From a virus: a stretch of DNA of 21,868 bases. Where the stretch lies: positions 1 through 21,868 of IMG/VR virus record IMGVR_UViG_3300045912_000065, one strand, 5' to 3'. Position 1 is the stretch's first letter, and each line of letters begins with the position of its first letter. Position numbers and translations under genes: made by a program. The notes below the pieces were generated by a model. The model saw only the letters and a program-made list of their open reading frames with translations, was not told where the DNA came from and searched no databases. Shown here piece after piece: positions 121 to 19,700 of the stretch.

Positions 121-1692
121 ATGAGCAAGACACTCCTGAGCGACGTCTCGTATGTTCGACTGACGCTGGTAGAGTCGAACGGGAATCGGGTCAAGGTGCG
201 CGGTGAGTTCGCCAAGTGCGGAGTCGCCACGGAGAACAAGCGCGTCTACCCGAAGCACGTGTGGGAAAAGGAAATCAAGCGCCTCAGCAAGGCGCTGAAG
301 GAGCGCCGCGTCTTTGGCGAAATCGACCACCCGTCTGACGGACAAACCAAGCTGGCCCGAGTCAGCCACGTCGTCACGGACCTCCGCATCAAGGACGGAA
401 TCGTCGAGGGCGAGGCCGAGATTCTCCCGACCGAAGCAGGGAAGAACCTCATGGCGCTGCTCCAGTCGAATGTCCTGGTTGGCGTCTCCAGTCGGGGCTT
501 CGGTAGCGTCAAGACGAACGACAAGAACGAAGACGTGGTGCAGGACGACTACAAGCTCGTGACGTTCGACTTCGTGGCGGACCCGGCCGATGTCGATGCC
601 TACCCGCAGGTGTCCGAGAGCCGACGCCTCTTCGAGGGCGTGGAGTTCGACGCCGACGAGGAGCAGGAAAAGGCCATTGAGTGGGCGCGACGCATCGAGG
701 CAGAGAAGACTGGAAGGCAGGTGGAGGCCAAGGAGACTCTCCGCGAGGAGTTTTCCCGCACCCTCCTGTCGAACCTTGCTGCCCTTCGCGAAGAGGCGAA
801 GGATGCTGTGCGGAAGGAGTTTCTCAACGACCCCGAAGTCGGTGCCGCCAAGCAGGCACTTGAGTCGGTGAAGGAAATCCTCAAGCCATTCATCCTTCCA
901 GGTGACGTCGCTGCTGTCGTCCGAGAGAAGGACGCGGCCATTCAGAAGCTCCAGATGGAGACGGCGGAGCTTTCCCTCAAGCTGAAGACGCTGGAGGAGG
1001 AGAACGCCTCTCTCGCGGCGATGGCGAAGGAGGTCGGCTACAGGTTCTACCTGGAGCGCATCCTCTCCAATGACCCGCAGGCCGAGTCGATTCGCGCCCT
1101 TGTGGGAGATGTGACGGAATTTGGGTCGTCCGACGAACTGAAGCGGAAGGTCGAGTCGGTGCGCGCCGAATTGTCGCGCAAGAGCGAGGAAACCAAGAAG
1201 GCCGTAGAGGCCAAGTCCAAGGAAGTCGAGAGCGCTCGCGCCGAAGAGTCTCGCCTGCGTGCGGAATTCGACAAGAAGCTCCAGCTCATCGAGGACCGTA
1301 TGGTCCGTGAGCAGCAGAAGGCCGACGAGCTGATGGCCAAGCTCCAGAAGGCCGAGGCCGAGAAGCAGGAACTGGAGTCTCGCCTCTACGCCGAAGAGCG
1401 CCTCAAGACGCACCCGAACAAGAACCTGAAGAAGCTGGTGGAGTCGGTCCGTCCGACGAAGTCGGAAATCGACGACCTCGTCGAAAGCAACCGCGAGCCC
1501 GTTCGTGATGCGGACGACTTGCAGCAGATTCGGGCCAAAATTCGCTCCAGGATGTCTGGCGGAGTCGAACGAGTACCTGAGGAAATGCAGGAAAGCGTCA
1601 ATCCACGCCGAAACGACTCGAAGTCGTCGGACTACATGGGCCTCGGGATTTCTCTCGATTCCCTGCGTCGCTTGAGTGGTATCGGCAACTAG
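121..1692 (+). CDS. Prohead core protease (T4 gp21 / S80-like) with long coiled-coil C-terminus
   Basis: This 523-residue protein should cleave scaffold and capsid proteins inside the prohead during maturation. The N-terminal domain, about residues 10-170, has the gp21-type pattern: GEF near 28-30, GEIDHP with His70, VGVSSRG with Ser123/Ser124, and a FDFVADPA block around Asp150. These fit the usual His/Ser/acid arrangement of capsid proteases; exact catalytic assignments are inferred. Residues about 200-480 are highly charged and rich in Glu, Lys, Ala and Leu, as in a long coiled coil. T4 gp21 is only about 212 residues and scaffold gp22 is separate; no separate scaffold gene sits before the capsid gene here, so a protease-scaffold fusion is likely. 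ATG at 121 is preferred because a TTG at 46 lies inside the repeat and in the wrong frame for the copied protein. The Shine-Dalgarno is weak, and the upstream frame ends one base earlier, allowing coupling. Confidence 0.85.
   Translation: MSKTLLSDVSYVRLTLVESNGNRVKVRGEFAKCGVATENKRVYPKHVWEKEIKRLSKALKERRVFGEIDHPSDGQTKLARVSHVVTDLRIKDGIVEGEAEILPTEAGKNLMALLQSNVLVGVSSRGFGSVKTNDKNEDVVQDDYKLVTFDFVADPADVDAYPQVSESRRLFEGVEFDADEEQEKAIEWARRIEAEKTGRQVEAKETLREEFSRTLLSNLAALREEAKDAVRKEFLNDPEVGAAKQALESVKEILKPFILPGDVAAVVREKDAAIQKLQMETAELSLKLKTLEEENASLAAMAKEVGYRFYLERILSNDPQAESIRALVGDVTEFGSSDELKRKVESVRAELSRKSEETKKAVEAKSKEVESARAEESRLRAEFDKKLQLIEDRMVREQQKADELMAKLQKAEAEKQELESRLYAEERLKTHPNKNLKKLVESVRPTKSEIDDLVESNREPVRDADDLQQIRAKIRSRMSGGVERVPEEMQESVNPRRNDSKSSDYMGLGISLDSLRRLSGIGN
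269..366 (+). repeat. 98-base direct repeat, right copy (inside the protease gene)
   Basis: Second copy of the repeat at 1-98. It encodes protease residues about 50-82, including the GEIDHP motif that carries the likely catalytic histidine. The surrounding gene is intact, so this is the functional copy. Confidence 0.95.
1293..1306 (+). repeat. Dyad repeat GGACCGTATGGTCC, copy 1
   Basis: Exact copy of the 14-base near-palindrome, with arms GGACC and GGTCC around GTAT. It lies inside the protease gene and is read there as DRMV. The other copies are at 4814, 7145, 12693, 15178 and 18683. Confidence 0.85.
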
Positions 1693-4185: not shown

Positions 4186-4599
4186 ATGGCACGGCTTCAG
4201 GACGTGATGGACGAGTTGTCGAGGCTTGGGGCTGTAGGGAAGTCTCCAGCAAGGCCCACAGAGGCACCCCCAGCATCTCCGGGGCGGCGCGAAGAGCCCT
4301 CGGTGCAGGACACTCCAGATGCGCCAACTGAGGACGACGCGGGGCCGGTCGATGCGTTCCTGACTCCAGAAGCAGAGGAGACCGTTCGAGCCTTGACTTC
4401 CGGGTTTTCAGAGGGGCTTGGAGAGGAGTCCGGCGAAGAAGGAGAGCCTGCCAAAGAGCCGAAATCTGACGAGACTGGCGTGTCTCAGAATAAAGAGGCG
4501 GCGCTTCTCCTCGACGTCCTGTGTACGCAGTTCGACCAGTTCGAGCTGTCGCTCAAAGAATTCAAGGAGAAGCTCTCCGCGCTGAAGGAGCTGCTGTGA
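4186..4599 (+). CDS. Acidic, largely disordered protein, 137 residues
   Basis: I do not recognise the family. After a short N-terminal helix, residues about 18-100 are rich in Pro, Glu, Asp, Ser and Gly and probably disordered. Residues about 100-137 form a leucine-patterned amphipathic helix that may mediate oligomerisation. A good ribosome site, AGGAGGA (4174-4180), precedes ATG 4186. The stop overlaps the next gene's GTG in GTGA, so the two are translationally coupled. An acidic linker with a helical end could suit a scaffold, chaperone or head accessory protein; this is only inference. Confidence 0.72.
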   Translation: MARLQDVMDELSRLGAVGKSPARPTEAPPASPGRREEPSVQDTPDAPTEDDAGPVDAFLTPEAEETVRALTSGFSEGLGEESGEEGEPAKEPKSDETGVSQNKEAALLLDVLCTQFDQFELSLKEFKEKLSALKELL

Positions 4600-5093
4600 G
4601 GTACTTCAAGAAACTCGTCAGCCTCCCCATTGTCATTCTTCCTGAACGTGGCCGCGTCTACGACACGGACCTGCTGGGAGGAGACGAGTACGCCAAGTAC
4701 GTGCCCCTGTACCTGTACGAGACGGACGCGCGAGGGTGGCCGATTCAGAAATCTGGACAGGGGGCCAGCCCAACGCCGGTAAACCACGTACAGCCGACAC
4801 AACCACCCGTGCCGGACCGTATGGTCCGCCCAACAGATGGCCCGACCCAAGCCGTTGCAGAGCCAGAACGACCGTCAGTCGTCTCGGCGCTGGAGGCCGA
4901 GTTGGAGCGCGCAAGGCGTGAGACTGTCCCACTGGAGGAGCCGACACCGCAGCAGCCGACACCGCAGCAGCCGCAGCAGGACACAAGTTCGACCACGCTG
5001 GCCAGTCGGGATACGCTTCAAGATGAAGCAAAGGAACCGCAGGGCAAAAAGAAGAAACGAAAGTACGTCGTCTCGTTTCCAGACGACGTGTGA
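4596..5093 (+). CDS. Small structural-type protein with Pro/Gln-rich linker, 165 residues
   Basis: The GTG start at 4596 overlaps the previous stop (GTGA) and has AAGGAG at 4585-4590, so coupled translation is likely. The first ~45 residues look folded, with alternating strands and a GGDEYAKYVPLYL segment. The rest is probably disordered: a proline-rich stretch, a short helix near residues 95-110, a TPQQP repeat and a basic GKKKKRKY stretch before a YVVSFPDDV end. The architecture, a small N-terminal domain with a long linker, recalls the protein at 9290. Function unknown; a minor head or neck component is plausible from position. Confidence 0.7.
   Translation: MRYFKKLVSLPIVILPERGRVYDTDLLGGDEYAKYVPLYLYETDARGWPIQKSGQGASPTPVNHVQPTQPPVPDRMVRPTDGPTQAVAEPERPSVVSALEAELERARRETVPLEEPTPQQPTPQQPQQDTSSTTLASRDTLQDEAKEPQGKKKKRKYVVSFPDDV
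4814..4827 (+). repeat. Dyad repeat GGACCGTATGGTCC, copy 2
   Basis: Exact 14-base copy, in the same orientation as copy 1. It lies inside the gene at 4596, in its disordered linker, where it is read as DRMV. Confidence 0.85.
4941..4979 (+). repeat. Tandem 15-base repeat coding for PTPQQ
   Basis: CCGACACCGCAGCAG occurs twice head to tail (4941-4955 and 4956-4970), followed by the partial unit CCGCAGCAG. It encodes the Pro/Gln linker of the protein at 4596. Such a repeat can vary in number by slippage. Confidence 0.9.
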
Positions 5094-6827: not shown

Positions 6828-7319
6828 ATGCCGCTCAATCCAGCCAAAGTCGCACTGGCGGTGCAGGGCGGACTCAGCGTCGTGTGTGCAACGTGCGAGC
6901 GGTACTGGGAGGGCCGAGACAAGGGCCTTCCTGGCGACCGCTGCACGTCACTGCGTCCGTGTGGCTCTCCCTTGGCGGGGGACGACTTCCACGCCTACAA
7001 GGGGCCGATGACGGAATTCAGCCTGTGGTGCTTCGTCTGTGGGCTGGATTCTGTCGGTGCCATTAGCAAGCCAGGGTCTAAGCGTCGATTCGGAGTCTGC
7101 GCTGTCCACAAGCAGATGGTGCCGACGATGAAGCCGATGGCGCAGGACCATACGGTCCCGCAGCAGCGCGCGTCATTTCACAGCGCTTCTGGACAGGAAG
7201 TGTCCATCGACTCTCTCATCCAGCCGAAGAAGCCGTCCGTCTGGGAAGTCATTCAGCAGACTGAGGCTGAATTCGAGAAGCGGGACAAAGAGCGCGGCCT
7301 CATTCCAGAGGACACGTGA
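6828..7319 (+). CDS. Cysteine-rich putative zinc-binding protein, 163 residues
   Basis: The N-terminal ~95 residues hold four evenly placed metal-type pairs: Cys20/Cys23, Cys39/Cys45, Cys68/Cys71 and Cys91/His94, enough for two zinc sites. Conserved-looking aromatic and glycine turns (RYWEGR, CGSPLAGDDF, WCFVCG) lie between them. The C-terminal ~65 residues are polar and end in a charged helix. ATG 6828 comes one base after the previous stop, so it is probably coupled. I do not know a named family. Position between neck genes and a tail-completion candidate suggests an assembly or minor structural protein rather than an enzyme. The dyad repeat copy 3 lies inside it. Confidence 0.72.
   Translation: MPLNPAKVALAVQGGLSVVCATCERYWEGRDKGLPGDRCTSLRPCGSPLAGDDFHAYKGPMTEFSLWCFVCGLDSVGAISKPGSKRRFGVCAVHKQMVPTMKPMAQDHTVPQQRASFHSASGQEVSIDSLIQPKKPSVWEVIQQTEAEFEKRDKERGLIPEDT
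7145..7158 (-). repeat. Dyad repeat, copy 3 (reverse orientation)
   Basis: The + strand reads GGACCATACGGTCC, the exact reverse complement of copies 1 and 2. It lies inside the gene at 6828 and is read there as DHTV, so a protein motif is not what is conserved. Confidence 0.85.
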
Positions 7320-12692: not shown

Positions 12693-12706
12693 GGACCATA
12701 CGGTCC
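12693..12706 (-). repeat. Dyad repeat, copy 4 (reverse orientation, intergenic)
   Basis: The + strand reads GGACCATACGGTCC, three bases after the sheath stop, in the 58-base gap before the gene at 12748. This is the only exact copy outside genes. It could form an RNA hairpin at the 3' end of the sheath message. No T run follows. Confidence 0.85.
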
Positions 12707-15143: not shown

Positions 15144-15183
15144 CTTCAAAAGTGAAGTAAGTCGGTCCCTTCTTCGGGGACCG
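15144..15183 (+). promoter_or_regulatory. Two-hairpin leader of the HNH/RHH gene
   Basis: CTTCA (15144-15148) pairs with TGAAG (15153-15157), and CGGTCCC (15163-15169) pairs exactly with GGGACCG (15177-15183) over a seven-base loop. The second stem ends two bases before the ATG at 15185 and would hide the GGGGA ribosome site. There is no T run, so it is more likely a translation control element than a terminator. Confidence 0.55.
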
Positions 15184-15191
15184 TATGGACC
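15178..15191 (+). repeat. Dyad repeat, copy 5 (one mismatch, spans a start codon)
   Basis: GGACCGTATGGACC differs from the exact copies only in the right arm, GGACC for GGTCC. The ATG of the HNH/RHH gene is bases 15185-15187, inside the motif. It also overlaps the right arm of the leader hairpin. Confidence 0.7.
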
Positions 15192-15730
15192 TCACCCGGA
15201 CAAACGAAAAAGACTGGGCAACGCGGGCCGTAGAGGAAGCTCGTGGCCTGTGCGCGAATTGCGGGAGCGAGCACAAGGTTTCGGCTCGCCTCATTGTTCC
15301 AGTTGAGGCGGGCGGAAAGACGATTCCAGGAAACATCGTCGTGTTGTGCCGGGCGTGCGAGCTGGCTTCTGGGTACGCCCTGAAACAGATTTCTGAAAAG
15401 AGTCGGAGACTCGTCAACATCTGGGTTTCACACCGGCTCTACAAGAGTCTGTTGGTGCGCAAAGAACGCGGTGTTTCCAGCATCTCGTCGCTGGTTCGTT
15501 TCCTGATGGCGCAGTACGTCGCAACGCAGAGTCGGTTCGACGACATCACGCAGTACCAAGATGGCGGGTCAGACGTGCGCCTGAACATCTGGGTGGACGC
15601 GGACTTGTACCAGTCGTTCAAGACGCTGGTGGACCGACAGGGGATGACCGTCACGTCGGCCCTGAAGTCGCTGTTCTGCATGTACGAAGCTGAAGCCATC
15701 CCACTCGTCGAGCTGAGGAATCTCCCATGA
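15185..15730 (+). CDS. DNA-binding protein: degenerate HNH-type zinc finger plus two ribbon-helix-helix repeats
   Basis: The 181-residue protein begins with an HNH-like finger: Cys23/Cys26, a Pro39 and GG (43-44) spacer, Asn50, then Cys55/Cys58. The catalytic Asp-His of true HNH nucleases is replaced by Arg35-Leu36 and the final Asn by Glu59, so zinc binding is likely but cutting is not. Two repeats follow: a NIWV strand at 78-81 with two helices to about 112, and a matching NIWV at 134-137 with helices to about 168. Each fits the strand-helix-helix plan of ribbon-helix-helix (Arc-like) proteins, so one chain may make a full DNA-binding pair. It is an unexpected regulator or structural DNA binder among tail genes. 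The start codon lies in the near copy of the dyad repeat. The stop overlaps the next ATG in ATGA. Confidence 0.7.
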   Translation: MDLTRTNEKDWATRAVEEARGLCANCGSEHKVSARLIVPVEAGGKTIPGNIVVLCRACELASGYALKQISEKSRRLVNIWVSHRLYKSLLVRKERGVSSISSLVRFLMAQYVATQSRFDDITQYQDGGSDVRLNIWVDADLYQSFKTLVDRQGMTVTSALKSLFCMYEAEAIPLVELRNLP

Positions 15731-16530
15731 GCGGACAAGTCACGTTCTCTGAAGTCGTCAACCAGAACCTTCTGGAGACGCCGAAATCCACGCAAGCCGA
15801 ATACACGCTTCCGTGCGGGTACTTGGCCCCCGACGGAACGCTGCACACCGAAGTCCGACTGCGCGAGATGACGGGACGGGAGGAGGACTTGCTCGCCTCA
15901 ACCAAGCTGTCTCCGCTGCGGAAAATCAACGCACTCATCGTCAACTGCGTGGAGCAGGTTGGAACCATCACAGACAGGAATCAGTTCGCTGCCATCGTGC
16001 AGGAGCTGCCAGTTGGCGACAGAATCTTCCTGCTGCTTGCCCTTCGGCGGACGTCTCTTGGAGACGAGTACCCTGTGGAGCAGGAGTGCCCGGCGTGCAA
16101 GGTGAAGAGTCGCTACGTCCTCAATCTCGGAGACCTCGAAACCAAGCCCATGAAAGACCCGAAGAGGCGCGTCTTCGACACGACGCTTCCTTCTGGCAAG
16201 ACGGCACGCTTCAGACTGGCGACCGGGGCCGACGAGGAGCGCGTCTCCAAGGTTCCAGACGAGGAGAAGCCCAGCATGACGTTGCTGTGTCGGCTGGAGT
16301 TGCTCAACGGCAAGGCCCCAACCATGCCGGACATCAAGGCGCTGTCCTTCCGGGACCGTTCAGCCCTACGAGAGGCCCTTGAGGAGAATGATGGCGGGGT
16401 AGACACTGCCATGCAGATGACTTGCCCTGCCTGTGGGCACGACTTCGAGACGGAGCTGGACCTCGGGCAGGCCGGTTTTTTCTTCCCGCATCGGGTCCAG
16501 AAGGACTGGAGGACGAAATCTTCTACCTGA
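15727..16530 (+). CDS. Zinc-ribbon baseplate hub / tail assembly protein (T4 gp26/gp28-type candidate), zero-frame product
   Basis: The 267-residue protein has a MTGREEDLL stretch near 48-56, a DRIFLLLALRRTSLGDEYP block near 98-116, and two Cys-Pro-Ala-Cys pairs (121-124 and 233-236) that should bind one zinc. This layout resembles T4-like hub/assembly proteins encoded beside the tape measure. ATG 15727 overlaps the previous stop and has GAGGAA (15715-15720). A TTTTTTC slip site at 16476-16482 near the end could shift ribosomes into a second frame that runs to 16682. The zero-frame end, after the slip, is only 15 residues long and looks like the short form of a G/GT-type pair. Confidence 0.65.
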   Translation: MSGQVTFSEVVNQNLLETPKSTQAEYTLPCGYLAPDGTLHTEVRLREMTGREEDLLASTKLSPLRKINALIVNCVEQVGTITDRNQFAAIVQELPVGDRIFLLLALRRTSLGDEYPVEQECPACKVKSRYVLNLGDLETKPMKDPKRRVFDTTLPSGKTARFRLATGADEERVSKVPDEEKPSMTLLCRLELLNGKAPTMPDIKALSFRDRSALREALEENDGGVDTAMQMTCPACGHDFETELDLGQAGFFFPHRVQKDWRTKSST

Positions 16531-16716: not shown

Positions 16717-19700
16717 ATGGCACTGAATCTCGGCTTCAATTTCACGGCGCGGGCCAACCCGGTTGTCCGGGCCCTCTCCGACCTCACGTCTGAGTTTCGG
16801 TCTCTCGGGAAGGAGATTCTCGGCCTTTCCCGGATTCAGACGATGCTGTCGGCCTTCTCGTTCGACAAGCTCGACCAGATGGCCGACAGGCTCAAAACCA
16901 TCGGCACAGGAGGGATGGAGCTGACGTCCTCGTGGGAGGCAGCGTTCAAGGCGAACGCCGTCGCCATGTCGAAGTTGGGCGCTCAGACTGGCTTTACCGC
17001 CGAGCAGTCTCGGGAAATGGCACGGCAGTCATTTGCCATGTCCAAGAGCATCGGCATGTCCACGGACGTTGCCAACGAAGCACTCATTGGCATGCGGTGG
17101 GCAAGTGCCGAAACAAAGGCCGCGTTCGAGTCTGCCTTCGGCGTCAAGACGGCAGAGGACCTGGCCAAGTTCGCCACCCAGTCTGGACTGAGCGCCAAGG
17201 ACTTCATCTACGCGCAGAGCCAACTGCAGAAGTCGCTTGGGTTCACCTCGGAGCAGCTCGCCGAGATGAATGCGATGGCAGCCACCGTCGGGAAAGAGTC
17301 TGGCAACATGCAGGAGGCGTTCAACGCCCTTGCGGGAATGGCCGACAAGATGAAGGCGCGAAAAAACGTCTTCGTCTCGATGGGGCTGGACGCCAAGGAG
17401 GCCACGAAGCGGGTCGCCGAGCAGACGAAGCAGACACTCGGGCTGGGCAAGGTTCTCCAGGCCCAGGGCATCGCGGGTGGCCTTGAGGCCGCAGTCAAGC
17501 TGCAGGATGCCCTTGCGGAGTCGGCGTCGCAATTCAAAGACCTCATCGATGGAGCGGCGACGGAGTTTCCGGGACTCCTGACGGCGCTTACCAAGGTCGG
17601 CGTCTCCCAAGACGCAGTCATGCAGTCGATGGCCGAAGGGCCGCAGGACTTCATGCGAATGATGGCGAAAGCCGTCGACGAATTGGAGCGCCGGGGACAG
17701 GACACTGGACAGGTACTCGGGTTTGTTGAGTCGCAACTCAAGGGCGCGCTGGGCGACGAGGCTGCTACCAAACTTGCGGACGGACTGAGAGACGCCAGCA
17801 AGCGGACCCAGTACCTGACGTTGGACCTCAAGAAGCTGGGTGAGGAGGGAAAAAAGGCCGGGAAGGAAATCACCAAGAGTTACCAAGACCCTCGTACCGC
17901 GCAGGAAATCTTCGCCGACCAGCAGGCGGCCTTCCTCCAACGCTTCCGCGCGCTTGGGACGATGACGACAAATGAGTTCCTCAAGGGGACGAGCCAGTCC
18001 TTCAGGGACTTCGGGAACCTCATGCAGAAGACGGCCTCGGAGGGTGGGCCGCTCGCACTCGTCCTCAACAAGATGGCGGACATTCAGAAGTTCGGCGCAG
18101 CCGGACTTTTCCCGCCGGACATGCAGGGCCCGCTGGTTGCGCTTGGTAGCACGACAGAGACGCTCATCTCCCCGCTTGCCAAGCTTCGGGCCGCAGGCAT
18201 CAACATCCTGTCTCCATTCGGACTGCTGACTGCCGCCGCAGCAGGACTCGCCGCGAAGTTCGTATCCCTCAAGGCGCAGGGGAAGACAACAGAGGAGGCG
18301 TTCAACGAGATAGCCGCGACGGTAGAGAAGTTCGTCACTGTGACGCTGCCGAAGTACGCCAAGCTCGCCTCAAAGGCGATTGCCTCTTTCATCAAGGCGC
18401 TCTTCAGGCCAAAGGACACGGAGAACCAGACGACCTACGAGGCTTGGGCGAAGAAAATCCTCGATGGCATCACCTCTGCCCTCAAGTCGGCTTTTGCGTT
18501 TGCGCAGGAGGTCGTCGTCTCACTGTGGGCAGGCTTGAGCGGGAAGATGACTGGAACGGACGTCCTGACAGGATCGGACGCAGAGGCTATCGGCGCAGGA
18601 ATCGGCACCAAACTCCGCGAGGCGCTGGGTTGGGCCAAGGAGGAGACGCTTGGGTACATCGATGGATGGTGGAAGGAGATGTGGACCGTATGGTCCGACC
18701 CCAGCATGACGATGTCCGACAAGATGGCGTCATCTTTCGTGCCGTCTCTGCCGTTGATTGCTACAGGTGTCATCGCCTTCGGGCCTCTCGTTCGGGTTCT
18801 GAGTCTCGTTGGAACAGTAGCGCAGGTGGCCTTTACGGCTTTCAGCTACCTCGGAAGCGCAGTCGGTTTTTTCGTGAGACTCCTCCCGTCTGCAGGGACA
18901 CTGCTGAGCGGGCTCTGGAACGTCCTGAGTGGGGTTGCCGGTATTGCAACAGAGGTTGTTGGATTCCTCACCGGGACGACAGGTGCCGCGGCGGGTGTCC
19001 TGACGGCAGTAGCTGCGCTGACGGCAGGATTCCTGTTCTTCCCGGATGCGACGGCGCAGGCAGTCGATGCTGTAGCTGGATTTGCAGGGGATGCCGGGGA
19101 GCTGCTTGGAAATCTTGCCGGGTACATCGTCTCGTTGCCGGTAAAATTCCTAGGCTTCCTGTTCGAGTCACCAGGCTTCGTACTGGACTGGATAGGGATG
19201 CTTGTCGGCATCATCCAGCGTCTCCCCGTTGCGCTTGCCGACGCACTGGTCGGCGCACTCGAAATCGTCAAGAGCTTCGTCGCCGGTCTGATTTCTGGAA
19301 TCCGTGACCAGCTGGCGAGCCAGTTTCCGGCCGCTGCAGGTCCAATTTTCACAGTCTTCAACGCCATTCAGTCCATCGTCGAGACAGTCGTCGGAACGTT
19401 CCAGCTCGGATTCACCGTCGTCGGAGAGGTGCTCTCTACGTTTCTGTACGTCATCGAGCGCGTCTACGGGACAGTCAGGCTGGCGTTCGAGGTGATGTAC
19501 GCCGTCATCAAGGAAAAGTTAGTCGGCGGATTCCTGTCCGGCTTCAGTGTCGTCGGAGACGCACTCAGTCGGTTTGGAAACTACCTCTGGGAGACGTTCG
19601 GAGGAATCCTTGGGCCGATTGGTGAATTCTTCAAGACGTTCTACGAGGCCACCGTCACAAAACTGGCCGACGGAATCAAACTCATCAAGGATGCCTTCGG

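Follow-up and report, generated by a model that had tools for sequence, protein, structure and literature searches.

A dispersed network of lineage-specific palindromes in myoviruses with T4-like capsids, and a conserved tail-operon protein with a predicted tandem ribbon-helix-helix fold

Described operator networks and the phages compared

A handful of temperate phages are known to have dispersed, lineage-specific operator networks, which determine their immunity. The stoperators of Cluster A mycobacteriophages, which are temperate siphophages with a known immunity repressor, are asymmetric 13-bp sites (PMC6550527, PMC9283540). SPBRE, a 15-bp intergenic element of the Bacillus phage SPbeta, lies at promoters of a temperate phage and was noticed from the sequence long before its reader, the recombinase-derived repressor MrpR (PMC10516654). 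The palindromes described here likewise recur in many copies throughout the phage genome, close to gene junctions. They resemble stoperators in being short, spread genome-wide, mostly in one orientation to transcription and variable in motif among related phages, and they share with SPBRE the character of a dispersed element in intergenic regions. Unlike stoperators, they are palindromic and belong to phages with T4-like capsids in which no integrase was found; unlike the SPBRE system, they come with no MrpR-like protein that we could identify. Searches of 12 records, all of them fragments, found no tyrosine integrase and thus gave no indication of a temperate life style. Because neither that life style nor a reader was found, we do not file the network as a member of either system.

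The stretch analysed, called the window here, is a whole IMG/VR record of 21,868 bp, itself a fragment, that covers a myovirus structural region: major head protein, head-tail adaptor, sheath, tail tubes, a baseplate-hub family protein and the tape measure. The phages of its clade are uncultured, large myoviruses with T4-like capsids. It was compared with a near-identical relative (G001) and with distant relatives, which were gathered via their capsid, hub and tube proteins. Every record analysed is a metagenomic fragment, with genes called by a simple script.

Lineage-specific palindromes at gene junctions

The first-pass annotation had described repeats of a dyad spread over the genome, and these are real. 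The dyad GGACCRTAYGGTCC occurs in five exact copies in the window (1293, 4814, 7145, 12693 and 18683), against none in 60 trials with codon-shuffled versions of the window's genes, and G001 carries seven exact copies and one variant. The copies in the window, including one with a mismatch at the start of the gene considered in the next section, are:

1293..1306, + strand: dyad GGACCGTATGGTCC, within gene 46-1692
4814..4827, + strand: dyad GGACCGTATGGTCC, within gene 4596-5093
7145..7158, + strand: dyad GGACCATACGGTCC, within a gene
12693..12706, + strand: dyad GGACCATACGGTCC, at the junction of the tail sheath gene and the next gene, a position kept in relatives
15178..15191, + strand: dyad copy GGACCGTATGGACC, mismatched at one position, with the ATG (15185-15187) of the HNH-RHH gene inside it
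18683..18696, + strand: dyad GGACCGTATGGTCC, within the tape-measure gene

The contig also begins with a 98-nt direct repeat (1-98 and 269-366, 99% identity), probably an assembly artefact that also lengthens the reading frame 46-1692.

Related myoviruses show the same architecture in other letters, each lineage having its own 13-16 bp palindrome. De novo counts gave 26 exact copies of CGAACTNNAGTTCG in G035 (195 kb; 0.012 expected), 11 of GGATCGNNCGATCC in G016 (0.05 expected), 10 of GTCCGTACGGAC in G031 (0.009 expected), nine of CGACCANNTGGTCG in G025 (0.02 expected) and eight of CGTCCANNTGGACG in G036 (168 kb; 0.03 expected). Further lineage palindromes are CGACCANTGGTCG in G024 (nine copies), CGCAAGNNCTTGCG in G023 (seven copies) and TGCACANNTGTGCA in L186, which has 11 copies in 17.3 kb, at almost every tail-gene junction (L186:993-13233). 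Among the versions is also CGACCACGTGGTCG, with nine copies. Codon-shuffled genes yield essentially no palindrome copies. Counts of perfect dyads alone missed the type found in G009, with its imperfect arms, which k-mer over-representation recovered: G009 (91.5 kb) has 15 sites at up to one mismatch and 17 at up to two, and at the latter threshold G007 has 10 and G002 has 12. A clear dyad was not seen in G027, G028, G029 and G038-G041, possibly because their sites are imperfect and escape the search. A repeat in G003, CCTTGNCAAGG, was rejected as a dyad, being coding repetition within the tape-measure gene.

The sites are dispersed and biased towards junctions, with 93 of 144 outside genes compared with 18.5 expected. 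TATGGTCC is the top over-represented 8-mer of the sense strand in G001, G009 and G002, and it favours one direction, 24 to 6. In G001, G007, G009 and G035 the sites are spaced more evenly than expected by chance (P 0.003-0.02); in other records they are not. A palindrome of the lineage's own type lies directly before the tape-measure gene in L094, L095, L097, L148, L150, L153, L157, L160, L170, L174 and L185, and just before it in G035 as well. Apart from this junction, few of the gene families behind sites recur across lineages; given these differing genes, roles for the whole genome, such as packing or segregation, fit as well as gene control does.

Three of the 11 sites in G016 lie 10-15 bp behind the -10 element of sigma-70-like promoters (TTGACW-N17-TAnnnT; P 0.002 each). 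A general reading of the palindromes as T4-like late promoters is unlikely, because some genes begin within a dyad, with their own ribosome site upstream. A separate, non-palindromic over-represented motif, GGAAAACT/AGTTTTCC (and GAGTTTGC), occurs in G009 (L024-L028), G026, G040, G041 and G013 and is a candidate phage promoter element.

A conserved tail-operon protein with an inactive HNH finger

The gene that starts within the dyad copy at 15178-15191 encodes a dead-HNH, tandem ribbon-helix-helix (RHH) protein, HNH-RHH for short. The features around it are:

15163..15183, + strand: hairpin CGGTCCCTTCTTCGGGGACCG, spanning an upstream half-site and the left arm of the dyad
15185..15730, + strand: dead-HNH and tandem RHH protein, 181 aa, ATG start
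15251..15361, + strand: HNH-type zinc finger without the catalytic His, residues 23-59
15404..15523, + strand: predicted RHH unit 1, residues 74-113
15575..15694, + strand: predicted RHH unit 2, residues 131-170 (AF2, Foldseek)
15727..16530, + strand: baseplate-hub family gene (phrog_150), the conserved downstream neighbour

In profile searches, residues 23-59 match the HNH_5 and HNH models below threshold (E 7e-4 and 2.5e-3), and the RHH_5 model weakly matches residues 78-114 (E 4.5e-3). The zinc-binding CxxC...CxxC motif is present, its four cysteines (C23, C26, C55 and C58) invariant in 33 orthologues. The catalytic histidine pair is gone: none of 35 relatives has a histidine at either position, which are occupied by ARL/PRL/RMI and by E/D/Q. 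An AF2 model built with the 33 orthologues (pLDDT 87.9) has an HNH-like core followed by strand-helix-helix units at 74-113 and 131-178. In Foldseek the RHH pair matched F-plasmid TraY (9f11_G; TMt 0.71, rmsd 2.6, probability 1.00), while for the N-terminus the match was the HNH enzyme 4h9d. Because the Foldseek E-values against the PDB are weak (0.02-0.1), the fold assignment rests jointly on topology, TM-score and sequence matches. Judged by its modelled fold, the protein belongs with the TraY-type tandem RHH proteins and not with the HNH nucleases: it is a predicted single-chain RHH pseudo-dimer atop an inactive HNH zinc finger, and it probably binds DNA. Both structural proposals of the first-pass annotation, a zinc finger stripped of its catalytic pair and two RHH repeats in one chain, thus agree with the cysteine and histidine patterns and with the model.

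TraY is described as a monomer whose single chain comprises the complete RHH dimer fold (PMC12117103). TraY is the closest solved match to the RHH part and shares this one-chain fold, but it has no HNH zinc finger, acts at oriT and is 14% identical to the window protein. The HNH endonuclease Gme HNH (4h9d) has the same N-terminal zinc-finger fold, whereas the family described here lacks the catalytic His throughout and is fused to RHH units. The fusion is a core protein conserved in the clade, and its parts reach known families only at scores under the curated cut-offs.

A DNA-binding gene within a tail-assembly operon had been thought unusual. In this clade it is not: the HNH-RHH gene occupies the slot between the tail-tube and baseplate-hub genes in about 50 related records or loci and counts among the conserved core genes of the clade. 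Close relatives of the protein were found in ten records. Among the isolated phages of INPHARED no full-length HNH-RHH protein was found, the matches covering the HNH half only, and genome_contigs contained no relative. In G028 the profile match to the gene (36711-37217) crosses one in-frame TGA.

Of the ten close relatives examined, nine have a dyad at the 5' end of the HNH-RHH gene; only one sublineage has a dyad at the start of this gene. The earlier observation that the ATG lies inside a dyad copy is correct for the window. In other members of the sublineage, in contrast, the dyad (GGGCCATATGGTCC or similar) sits within the gene, about 17 nt from its 5' end; the ATG there lies upstream of the dyad and is preceded by a good ribosome site, GAGGTAAGG. 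The hairpin described over the ribosome site, 15163-15183, is predicted to form eight pairs (seven had been counted), including one U-G, at -14.1 kcal/mol, a stability matched by 5 of 200 shuffles. Relatives do not conserve it (z +0.39 and -0.86).

Candidate readers of the sites

The reading that we favour, with about even confidence, is a dispersed operator network of the stoperator or SPBRE kind with a dimeric reader, in which the HNH-RHH gene is a target and not the general reader. The dyad at 15178-15191 is one site of the genome-wide network. A dimeric DNA-binding protein most likely occupies the dispersed sites and, in the manner of stoperator or SPBRE networks, blocks or tunes transcription through the gene junctions or from them. 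As the HNH-RHH gene carries a site in the window's sublineage, it is itself a likely target.

The first-pass annotation had proposed instead that the HNH-RHH protein may read the repeats, and that gene and dyad would occur together in other phages. Gene and dyad, however, also occur independently of each other. Dyads are present where the gene is absent in at least three phages (G035, with 26 exact copies; G036, with eight; L186, with 11 in its 17 kb), as we confirmed for G035 and L186 by reading the region downstream of the tube directly, and G003, whose copy of the gene is 65% identical, shows no dyad across its 14.4 kb. The outward residues of the predicted DNA-contact strand, moreover, are mostly N-W or K-N-W whether the half-sites are GGACC, CGACC or CGAAC; the strand is near-constant while the palindrome changes. 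The protein is therefore not the general reader, and what is left of the claim is limited to particular lineages. There the protein may read sites of the GACC type, one pseudo-dimer per half-site and two molecules filling the dyad, and control its own gene in the window's lineage, while phages without the gene use another reader; we regard this as possible though doubtful. The TraY-like fold and the dyad at the gene's 5' end in close relatives are consistent with it. Half-site centres 9 bp apart suit RHH pairs, and this is the spacing seen here. GACC-type half-sites occur in 17 of 22 lineages with the gene and in none of six without it (P 0.001, uncorrected for, and confounded by, kinship; the rows of this table were entered by hand from earlier results). 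G023, which has an altered strand (NFL), has CGCAA sites, and among 51 proteins of G009 no other regulator fold was found. Against it stand the constant strand, the phages in which gene and dyad part company, and the lack of a dyad at the gene's start in G011, G015, G023-G025 and G030-G033.

The sites could alternatively be centromere-like, of parS type, and serve genome-wide as loading points for a ParB-like protein of the phage, or for another clamp or architectural protein, in condensation or segregation. Both parS and the sopC of F and N15 are likewise palindromes of 14-16 bp, and several palindrome versions have the CCACGTGG core found in chromosomal parS together with GGACC arms like those of F sopC. 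Even spacing fits this idea, as do a ParB_N family (f60) in most dyad-bearing records and a second family, f62 (phrog_17202; L026:18642-19700 and orthologues), in all long records that have dyads and include its region. Here, however, arms and spacers differ by lineage and some phages with sites lack ParB: f60 is absent from G035, which has the most sites and whose ParB_N domain is fused to a methyltransferase, and G024, G030 and G041 have similar f60 proteins but differ in site status. These absences, together with the lack of any ParB_N in G037, exclude the ParB_N family as universal reader, and we consider the centromere reading unlikely. The family f62 is missing from G028, G029, G038 and G039, four records without clear sites, and is the only candidate whose presence tracks the sites, by correlation only. 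A host protein, for example of LexA or Noc type, could also bind the sites, the lineage following the host's motif. The CGAAC-N4-GTTCG sites of G035, L150 and L198 resemble the Gram-positive LexA box, and motifs do vary by lineage; a single phage with 26 sites, most of them at gene junctions along the whole genome, does not look like an SOS regulon, and a host reader is quite improbable. A phage-encoded LexA was rejected, the LexA-type DNA-binding domain PF01726 being found nowhere above cut-off in the 12 records; with no tyrosine integrase either, a lysogeny repressor is not evident. Least probable is that the dyads act as RNA hairpins in the mRNA, in processing, translation control or as tips of terminators. 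Sites do fall between a stop codon and a ribosome site, and two dyads of G009 (28841 and 90574) form the tips of terminator-like hairpins. Yet the dyad centre is often a perfect palindrome (CACGTG, GTAC, ATAT), so that symmetric bases are retained in the would-be loop, many sites lie within genes, and the arm changes seen in the window's lineage disrupt pairs and are left uncompensated. The palindromic centres and uncompensated changes argue for recognition as DNA.

A network of this kind across a clade with T4-like capsids and without tyrosine integrase makes it testable what such sites are for in lytic-type phages, and how reader and sites change together; the palindromes can serve as bait for the reader. 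We can speculate, with rather low confidence, that every lineage of this apparently lytic clade has a private palindrome read by a fast-evolving phage protein, as a code of identity or superinfection without lysogeny, and that in lineages with the gene this reader would be the HNH-RHH protein. Small CopG-type RHH proteins are further reader candidates: one is encoded in G035 (L278:4283-4495), which has no HNH-RHH gene, and two in G016 (80867-81175 and 93622-94137), whose record ends before the HNH-RHH region.
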